A DNA stretch of 64,000 nucleotides, taken from assembly GCA_029268305.1 (NCBI GenBank), contig JAJUGE010000002.1:1-64000 (forward strand). The letters run 5' to 3'. The DNA is from Alphaproteobacteria bacterium (GTDB taxonomy: Bacteria > Pseudomonadota > Alphaproteobacteria > JAJUGE01). This document shows, in pieces, positions 47,188 to 49,844 of the stretch (positions are counted from its first letter, which is position 1; the number at the start of each line of letters is the position of its first letter). The notes under the pieces are model-generated. The model saw nothing but the letters and a program-made list of their open reading frames with translations, searched no databases and was not told where the DNA came from. The translations under genes and the position numbers were made by a program.

Positions 47188-47192
47188 GGAGG
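47188..47192 (+). promoter_or_regulatory. Shine-Dalgarno that defines the TTG start of the TGA-containing gene
   Basis: GGAGG at 47188-47192 lies seven bases before the TTG at 47200. This near-ideal site favours initiation upstream of the TGA at 47242 instead of at the GTG at 47308, which has no such site. Confidence 0.7.
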
Positions 47193-47199
47193 AGTTATC

Positions 47200-47970
47200 T
47201 TGGAATCGCGAGAAAGCATACGCGTCTTCTGGCATCCTGGCTGAACGAGCTGCCTCAGGACGAAAGAGTTCCTGTCGATCCGTGGGATCGAGTTCGAGTC
47301 TATAGACGTGGCGAACGATGAAGGCGGCATGGACGCCCTCAGGGCTCTCGGAGCCCGGACGGTTCCTGTCGTCGCCAAAGGCGATCGCTACGTGTTCGCG
47401 CAATCACTCAAGGTCGTTGCCGAATTCGTCGGATTGGCGGGAGATTTCGGGCCGGCTTTAGCCCCGCCCGAATTGATATCCCGCCTGGATCGTATCCTCG
47501 CGGGCGTACAGCGGTTCGTACGCCAGTTGCCGGAGGGCGAACTGGAAACGAAACTGAAGAACCGTAACCGGACCTACCGTCAACTCGGCCACCATGTCTT
47601 CCGCATTCCGGAGGCCTTCGTGGATGCGGTGGGTGAAGGGCGGCAACTAACCTACGAAGCGCTAACGGCTCCGCCGCCCGAAAATATCCGCTCCGGTTAC
47701 GATATCGCCGAATACGGCAGCGTCGTCCGGCAGAAAGTGAGGAACTGGTGGGACAGCACCAGCGGCGGAGGGTCGCTTCCGCAGATGGTGGACACCTATT
47801 ACGGCCAACAGCCACTGCATGAGGTTCTAGAGCGCACCACCTGGCACGCCGGCCAGCATGCGCGTCAGCTCATGTCGATCCTGGAAGACCTCGGGATAGC
47901 CGCCGATCAGCCCCTCACCGAGGCCGATTTCGCCGGATTGCCGATGCCGCAGAACGTTTGGGACGATTGA
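47200..47970 (+). CDS. Candidate selenoprotein: glutaredoxin-like UxxC domain fused to DinB-like domain
   Basis: 256 residues if the TGA at 47242-47244 is read as selenocysteine at position 15. The codons just before it give IRVFWHPG, those after it TSCLRTKEFLSIRGIEFE, so the active site would read G-U-T-S-C, the place of the first Cys in a glutaredoxin CxxC. Beta2 (FESIDV) and the cis-Pro motif RTVPVVAKGD complete the thioredoxin-like domain (about 1-80). Residues about 90-250 are a DinB/DUF664-like four-helix domain with candidate metal ligands H131/H132, H216 and H220 (TTWHAGQHARQLM). The start is a TTG with GGAGG seven bases upstream. Two hairpins follow the TGA. Alternatives: nonsense mutation, base error, or a shorter protein from GTG 47308 that would lose the redox site. 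gamma-Glutamyltransferase follows with an overlap. Confidence 0.72.
47256..47274 (+). promoter_or_regulatory. Candidate bacterial SECIS hairpin 1
   Basis: CAGGA and TCCTG pair around a 9-base loop (CGAAAGAGT) whose second base is G. The loop begins 17 bases after the TGA. Bacterial SECIS elements lie just downstream of the UGA with a small loop and a G in its first two positions, which this meets. The stem is short. Confidence 0.4.
47275..47291 (+). promoter_or_regulatory. Candidate bacterial SECIS hairpin 2
   Basis: TCGATCC and GGATCGA form a perfect 7-bp stem with the triloop GTG, whose first two bases are the GU typical of SelB-binding loops. The loop starts 38 bases after the TGA, at or just past the far end of the spacing seen in bacterial SECIS elements. 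It could act alone or stack with hairpin 1. Confidence 0.4.
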
Positions 47971-49844
47971 CATCACAGGCCCGTAGCCGCGTCGGCTCGT
48001 GCCTTGCCGCAGCAGGCGATTTGCCTGCTGCCGGTGAGCGCGAGCCGATCGGCTATCGCTGTTCCACGCTCGCGGAACGAGGGCCCGGGTGTCGGGCGCG
48101 GACATTCCTCGGCCCGCTGGTCGCGCTCTTCGTCTGCTTTCAACAATCGGACGCCCCGCTGGGTGCCGAGATGCGGCCAGATCCGGAAGCGGCGAGCGGA
48201 ATAATCGAGCGAACAGCGGTCGCGGCAAATCGCTACATGATTGCCGCCTCGCATCCGCTCGCGGCTGAAGCGGGGCTAGAGGCTCTCCGCCGCGGCGGCA
48301 GCGCGGTCGACGCCGCCATTGCCGCGCAGATGGTTCTGACCCTGGTCGAGCCGCAGTCATCCGGGATAGGCGGCGGCGGCTTTCTCCTGCACTATGATGC
48401 GGAGTCGGGGGAGCTGAAAGCTTACGACGGCCGCGAAACCGCCCCTGCGGCGGCAACGCCCGACATGTTCCTCGACGAATCCGGAGAGCCGCTCGCCTTC
48501 TTCGACGCCGTCGTCGGGGGCCTCTCCGTCGGCGTGCCCGGGCTCGTGCCGATGCTCGAGCGCGCGCATCGCGAGGAGGGCGAGCTGCCGTGGGCGAGCT
48601 TGTTCGCGGAGGCGATCGCGCTGGCCGAACGCGGCTTTCCGGTTTCACCCCGGCTGCATGCGCTGATCGCCGCCGACAAGTACCTGAAGCGGCATCCCGC
48701 CACCGCCGCCTATTTCCATACGCCGGAGGGCGCTCCGCTGCCGGCCGGCCACATCCTGCGCAATCCGGAACTGGCCGACACGCTCCGTGCCCTGGCCGAG
48801 GAAGGGAGCGCCGCAATCCTGACCGGCGAGATAGCGGCGGAGATCGTGGCCGAGGTGAGGGGCTTTGCGGCCAATCCGGGCCGGCTGAGCATGCAGGATC
48901 TTGCCGGTTACCAGCCGGTCGTCCGAGAGGCGGTCTGCAGAGCCTACCGACACTACCGCGCCTGCGGCATGCCACCCCCGAGCGCCGGGCCAATCGCCGT
49001 GCTGCAGACGCTGGGCATGCTGGAGCGGTTCGATGTCGCGGCACGCGGGCCGTGGTCGGTGGAATCGGCACATCTGTTCGCCGAAGCGAGCCGCCTCGCC
49101 TTCGCCGACCGGACGTATGTCGCCGATCCGGCTTTCGTAGACGTGCCGGTCGGAGGTCTGCTGGACCAGCGCTACCTCCTGGAGCGTTCCGAGCGCATCT
49201 GTATGGACGGCTCACTGGGCGAGGTGCTGCCTGGTACGCCCGCGATTCGCAAAACGGAGCTCGCTCCTCCAGCGGACGGAATGATTCGGCCACCATCGAC
49301 GATGCATCTGAGCGTGGTCGACGAGCAGGGCAATGTCGCTTCGCTCACCAGCAGCGTCGAGAACGCGTTCGGCTCGCGAATCATGGTGCGCGGCTTCATG
49401 CTGAACAATCAGCTGACGGACTTCTCGTTTCGGCCAGAGGTGGATGGGCGACCGGGCCCCAACCGTGCCGAGCCGGGAAAGCGCCCGAGAAGCTCGATGG
49501 CGCCGATGATCGTGTTCGGTCCGGAAGACCGGCCGGTACTTGCGATCGGGTCGCCGGGAGGCTCCCGCATCATCGGCTATGTCGGGAAGGTGCTCCTCGG
49601 TGTCATCGATTGGAACCTGGACGTGCAGCAGGCGATCTCGCTGCCGAACATCACGAACCGGAACGGCCCTACGGACCTGGAGGCCGACAGCTCGGCGGTA
49701 GCGTTGCAGGAGCCGCTGGAGCGGCTGGGGCATTCGGTGAGGCTCGTGCCGATGACCAGTGGTTTACATGGCATTCAGATCCTGCCGAGCGGCCTGCTCG
49801 GGGGCGCTGATCCGCGTCGGGAAGGGGTAGTCCTCGGCGACTGA
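47958..49844 (+). CDS. ggt: Gamma-glutamyltransferase
   Basis: Up to 628 aa; start uncertain. TTG codons at 47958, 47967 and 48021 and an ATG at 48171 are in frame; a hydrophobic stretch (FLGPLVALFVCFQQSDAPLGAE) ends just before that ATG and looks like a signal peptide, so a start upstream is preferred. The Ntn-hydrolase core is clear: AASHPLAAEAGLEALRRGGS, SSGIGGGGFLLHYD, and the autoprocessing site PSTMHLSVVDEQG where Thr (about 448) is the nucleophile. The residue after it is Met where E. coli has a second Thr. The oxyanion segment GSPGGSRIIGYV is intact. It cleaves gamma-glutamyl bonds such as in glutathione, probably in the periplasm. It overlaps the preceding redox gene by 13 bases. Confidence 0.88.
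   Translation: MGRLTSQARSRVGSCLAAAGDLPAAGEREPIGYRCSTLAERGPGCRARTFLGPLVALFVCFQQSDAPLGAEMRPDPEAASGIIERTAVAANRYMIAASHPLAAEAGLEALRRGGSAVDAAIAAQMVLTLVEPQSSGIGGGGFLLHYDAESGELKAYDGRETAPAAATPDMFLDESGEPLAFFDAVVGGLSVGVPGLVPMLERAHREEGELPWASLFAEAIALAERGFPVSPRLHALIAADKYLKRHPATAAYFHTPEGAPLPAGHILRNPELADTLRALAEEGSAAILTGEIAAEIVAEVRGFAANPGRLSMQDLAGYQPVVREAVCRAYRHYRACGMPPPSAGPIAVLQTLGMLERFDVAARGPWSVESAHLFAEASRLAFADRTYVADPAFVDVPVGGLLDQRYLLERSERICMDGSLGEVLPGTPAIRKTELAPPADGMIRPPSTMHLSVVDEQGNVASLTSSVENAFGSRIMVRGFMLNNQLTDFSFRPEVDGRPGPNRAEPGKRPRSSMAPMIVFGPEDRPVLAIGSPGGSRIIGYVGKVLLGVIDWNLDVQQAISLPNITNRNGPTDLEADSSAVALQEPLERLGHSVRLVPMTSGLHGIQILPSGLLGGADPRREGVVLGD

Follow-up and report, generated by a model that had tools for sequence, protein, structure and literature searches.

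On the forward strand of the window (the whole 64,000-nucleotide stretch of DNA analysed here), a reading frame running from the TTG at 47200 to the TGA ending at 47970 is broken by one internal stop only, a TGA at its fifteenth codon. An earlier note on this DNA had claimed that this sole stop takes the place of the attacking Cys of a glutaredoxin motif, and a re-reading of the frame confirmed it: with Sec written as U, the codon stands in the context IRVFWHPG-U-TSCLRTKEFL. The strong Shine-Dalgarno sequence that had been placed before the TTG is likewise found, and the features of the locus are collected in Table 1. The Ka/Ks values given there, calculated over the whole gene for pairs of TGA-form homologues, show that purifying selection acts on the frame 47200–47970.

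Table 1. Features of the fusion gene and its product, in window coordinates.
Feature	Position	Strand	Basis
Glutaredoxin-DinB fusion gene, probable selenoprotein	47200..47970	+	256 residues, counting the UGA as Sec; Ka/Ks 0.09–0.33
Shine-Dalgarno GGAGGAG	47188..47194	+	Sequence; 5 bases (TTATC) before the TTG start
In-frame TGA, probable selenocysteine codon, residue 15	47242..47244	+	TGA 55, TGC 13, TGT 7 among 75 loci
Glutaredoxin domain, residues 8–65; active site U15-T-S-C18, Pro56 invariant	47221..47394	+	Pfam Glutaredoxin (PF00462), 43.9 bits (cut-off 22.9); invariance
Predicted bacterial SECIS hairpin: 5' arm TCGATCC 47275–47281, loop GTG 47282–47284, 3' arm GGATCGA 47285–47291	47275..47291	+	Pairing, synonymous constraint, compensatory pairs
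Predicted DinB/YfiT (S-transferase-like) domain, residues 96–224; invariant His132, His216, His220	47485..47871	+	Pfam DinB_2; AlphaFold2 and Foldseek; His triad

The UxxC/CxxC motif of the glutaredoxin domain is invariant across the family: Cys18 is kept in 75 of 75 members and Pro56 in 76 of 76, and P13, G14, S17, C18, K22 and E23 are all invariant, or almost so, in the family alignment. Sec-containing glutaredoxins (Grx, PF00462) have been described (PMC13188914), and they share with the window protein the glutaredoxin fold and the Sec in the first position of UxxC, but here the domain forms the N-terminal part of a larger protein, whose second domain is the DinB metal domain. A glutaredoxin-like fold with Sec is also found in the NCBIfam Uxx-star (seleno)proteins (NF041212, NF041114 and NF041211) and in HUGP/GUXX-star (NF045501). 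However, these four models have a different architecture from the fusion, and the window protein scores far under their respective cut-offs (35.5 against 66, 14.1 against 72, 26.6 against 100 and 15.9 against 325).

The C-terminal domain is predicted to adopt the DinB/S-transferase-like four-helix-bundle fold. The match of the window protein to Pfam DinB_2 reaches 21.7 bits, slightly under the cut-off of 24.8, and 17 of the 20 family members aligned match this profile at E<1e-3. In the AlphaFold2 model of the fusion protein (pLDDT 91), this domain is superimposed by Foldseek on the DinB protein DR0053 (6iz2, DinB/YfiT) with a TM score of 0.80 of the target and an rmsd of 2.6, and all 76 family members carry the His triad in the spacing His...HxxxH. 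The DinB-like domain that the earlier note had proposed is thus upheld by Pfam, by the predicted fold and by the triad. The bacillithiol transferases of the DinB/YfiT superfamily, which require a metal for activity, have a triad of the same kind (H67, H160 and H164 in YfiT/BstA; PMC5815605), and we infer that the three His residues form a putative metal site. Likeness to this superfamily, which takes in the bacillithiol transferases BstA-H, the mycothiol transferase and EgtB and is reported to include glutathione S-transferases (going by the title of Newton 2011, as cited in PMC10950700), lies in the four-helix bundle and the spaced metal triad; what sets the present protein apart is its fusion to a Sec-glutaredoxin. 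Several Rokubacterial genomes (G451, G453, G454 and G455) yielded additional partial matches; four of these are stop-free and confined to the DinB part (profile positions from about 73–81 to 246–248), and they are possibly stand-alone DinB paralogues.

Homologues of the fusion were gathered from public genomes, whole-genome searches and plasmids, and, after removal of duplicates, 75 loci covered the active-site codon. According to the earlier note, homologues should present Cys at position 15; exactly there, every locus has TGC, TGT or TGA and no other codon, a regularity well beyond chance. The loci with TGA belong to separate genomes in nearly every case, and this form is spread over many families of Alphaproteobacteria and is also present in the Rokubacteria/Methylomirabilota and in the SAR324 group; the cultured Vineibacter terrae CC-CFT640 (L012) is one of its carriers. 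Among the Rokubacteria/Methylomirabilota the family is present in 51 of the 95 genomes searched, with one TGA in each match listed that covers the active site, and in the SAR324 group it is present in 5 of 52 genomes, each with one TGA. A phylum scan of 398 genomes gave two matches, both of which had been found earlier, and therefore did not extend the distribution outside the class. The Cys form is carried by other Alphaproteobacteria and by plasmids of Caballeronia, Variovorax, Roseomonas and Rhizobium, betaproteobacterial plasmids among them. Its annotated records (for instance, WP_244817409.1, WP_162571355.1 and WP_207446294.1, named ‘glutaredoxin domain-containing protein’ or ‘DinB family protein’) are full-length homologues with Cys at position 15, but they lack both the UGA and the constrained hairpin described below. 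On a tree built with the active-site residue left out, parsimony requires at least six exchanges between Sec and Cys, two of them forced by well-supported branches. One genome (G319) holds one copy of each form, Sec (TGA) and Cys (L057 and L134).

The earlier note had called for a search of the genome for the Sec machinery, and all four components are present: a tRNA-Sec with anticodon UCA (72 bits), selB (430 bits) and selA (536 bits), which are neighbours on one contig, and selD (314 bits). Among the genomes with a family member that were tested, tRNA-Sec was found in 14 of 16 TGA-form genomes versus 2 of 12 Cys-form genomes (Fisher p=3e-4, an optimistic value because the genomes compared are related). 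In two TGA-form genomes, G012 (77% complete) and G072 (for which no completeness is given), selA and tRNA-Sec were not detected, which is most simply explained by gaps in draft assemblies. When formate dehydrogenase was considered as a second selenoprotein, no UGA was seen in any match listed, and the sole formate-dehydrogenase-alpha-like match listed in the window genome (G000:C66:14170-16254) has no internal TGA. The usual main selenoprotein therefore seems to be absent, so that the Sec machinery must serve other proteins, and the fusion protein may partly explain why this costly machinery is kept. As for selD itself, one in-frame TGA occurs in each of the genes from SAR324 and Rokubacteria genomes (L045, L046 and L047), and none in that of the alphaproteobacterial relatives. 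In one relative (L118, G054:C48:60001-79900), about 7 kb separate the fusion gene from the selB-selA-tRNA-Sec cluster, and an adjoining ORF encodes a methionine sulfoxide reductase A domain.

A hairpin was expected just after the UGA, and a SECIS-like one is found. In the alphaproteobacterial TGA forms it reads TCGRTCC-GTG-GGATCGA, 31–47 bases past the UGA, and in the TGA forms the loop has a G close to its start. With 37 bases between it and the UGA, the loop is about as distant as is usual for bacterial SECIS elements, a point that counts against the reading. The alphaproteobacterial UGA forms (n=21) keep 6.57 of the 7 pairs, versus 4.48 under a synonymous null, whereas at the same position the Cys forms keep 2.65, versus a null of 2.66. 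In the Rokubacterial and Hyphomicrobiaceae TGA forms other stems are found, nearer to the UGA, which are also above the null and missing in Cys forms; the Rokubacterial stem keeps 8.65 of 10 pairs versus a null of 5.91, and the Cys forms 2.8 versus 2.48. Covariation in the alphaproteobacterial stem, in a test that took in one SAR324 member, leaves 94.6% of cells paired with four of the seven pairs changed on both sides; three of the five measures lie above all 500 shuffles, and every slid control is exceeded. For the Rokubacterial stem, covariation alone gives weaker support on two of the five. A test that needs no structure model, the frequency of synonymous change at conserved residues, gave a concordant picture: in the alphaproteobacterial TGA forms, codons +11 to +17 differ in 5.9% of comparisons versus 51.5% at codons 20–45, and in the Cys forms the figure is 54.7% for both regions. 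The controls for the hairpin leave shared ancestry in, but the Cys forms, treated identically, give no signal at all.

The folding energy of the whole region was replaced by these stem-specific and synonymous-site tests. Compared with synonymous shuffles, it is not lower in the alphaproteobacterial UGA forms (mean z -0.33), where only the specific stem is kept, and clearly so in the Rokubacteria (mean z -2.28). Another hairpin, at 47256–47274 (CAGGAC...TTCCTG), had been seen by eye and in the predicted fold; it was set aside because codons +4 to +10 are unconstrained (differing in 32–72% of comparisons), unlike 47275–47291.

Codon conservation, the presence of the Sec machinery and the hairpin together give strong support to the selenoprotein reading of the TGA put forward in the earlier note, and, on this sequence evidence, we consider it highly probable (roughly 0.94) that the gene 47200–47970 encodes a selenoprotein with Sec at UGA 47242. 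In the proposed decoding, ribosomes would read this UGA as Sec because SelB, with the Sec-tRNA(UCA), would recognise the hairpin 31–47 bases downstream. That the codon is read instead by near-cognate suppression, or as Trp or Cys, with no involvement of Sec machinery, is very improbable: such a reading could invoke the two UGA genomes with neither selA nor tRNA-Sec detected, but tRNA-Sec accompanies the UGA form in the large majority of genomes and is mostly missing from Cys genomes, and the hairpin downstream of the UGA is constrained in UGA forms only. Scarcely credible too is that translation yields only a 220-residue protein from GTG 47308, devoid of the glutaredoxin active site, with the upstream part untranslated. 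The ORF list does contain this frame (GTG 47308–47970, 220 aa), and an ordinary gene finder would probably predict the same; gene finders are expected to shorten the fusion to a ‘DinB family protein’ or to miss its start. However, the stretch preceding this GTG, with P13, G14, S17, C18, K22 and E23, is among the best conserved of the protein, its Ka/Ks is mostly well below 1 (on few sites), and the annotated Cys-form records span the whole frame. Finally, a pseudogene or a sequencing error, in which the TGA would be a nonsense mutation or a miscalled TGC or TGT, has a negligible chance of being correct: the codon is one base away from both and the window genome is a 226-contig draft, but the identical TGA occurs at 55 loci in frames otherwise open, its conservation across phyla makes an error untenable, and the low Ka/Ks over the gene and the invariant His triad and UxxC/CxxC argue against decay.

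We call the glutaredoxin-DinB fusion an unreported selenoprotein family or subfamily, that is, a new domain architecture made from known kinds. The claim that such a fusion was not known as a selenoprotein holds for the two resources consulted: the 2026 inventory, which covers 119 families of prokaryotic selenoproteins, includes Sec-glutaredoxins and has no DinB fusion (PMC13188914), and no NCBIfam model of June 2026 is passed by the window protein. Neither the literature searched nor that inventory contains a DinB-domain selenoprotein, and a search for DinB, glutaredoxin and selenoprotein together found nothing relevant in a literature in which subscription journals are thinly covered. Earlier marine surveys record UxxC selenoproteins of the Grx and Grx-like types under their domain alone (PMC1088965, PMC2398784), and single family members could therefore sit unrecognised there. 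The prokaryotic selenoproteome gains an unlisted architecture, whose members number in the dozens across Alphaproteobacteria, Rokubacteria and SAR324, and selenium becomes linked to the superfamily of DinB thiol transferases, few of whose natural substrates are known. In addition, the natural Sec/Cys pairs, including the genome with both forms, offer a direct test of the advantage that Sec brings.

With regard to function, we infer Sec insertion itself, the metal, the substrate and the coupling of the two domains, and the following scheme is put forward. The Sec selenolate would attack a disulfide, or a mixed disulfide with a low-molecular-weight thiol, and Cys18 would resolve the Sec-bound intermediate; the metal-bound DinB domain may activate or transfer a thiol, and the redox domain could reduce or recycle the thiol-linked substrate on which the DinB domain acts. 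The protein would in this case be a thiol transferase/reductase of two domains, serving detoxification or repair, a proposal to which we give nearly even odds. Somewhat more tentative is the fullest version of the idea: the family, unreported and spanning three phyla or more, would be the first selenoprotein with a DinB fold and a self-contained enzyme, in which the Sec-glutaredoxin regenerates the thiol cofactor or the product of the metal-dependent thiol transferase fused to it.

A different role, which keeps the Sec claim, has a real chance of being right, if one short of even: the DinB domain might be a structural or metal-sensing partner without any S-transferase role, and the protein a Sec-glutaredoxin reducing some protein partner. 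DinB-domain enzymes vary widely in sequence and in the reaction catalyzed, and a comparison of the gene neighbourhoods of family members revealed no conserved partner that might indicate a substrate, so that function is weakly constrained. On the other hand, the His residues of the putative metal site are invariant in the family, as in the bacillithiol transferases that need a metal (PMC5815605), which speaks for the transferase/reductase. In the window itself, a gamma-glutamyltranspeptidase gene lies directly downstream (47958–49844, the longest ORF starting from a TTG that falls within the 3' end of the selenoprotein gene), and a link to glutathione metabolism is possible.
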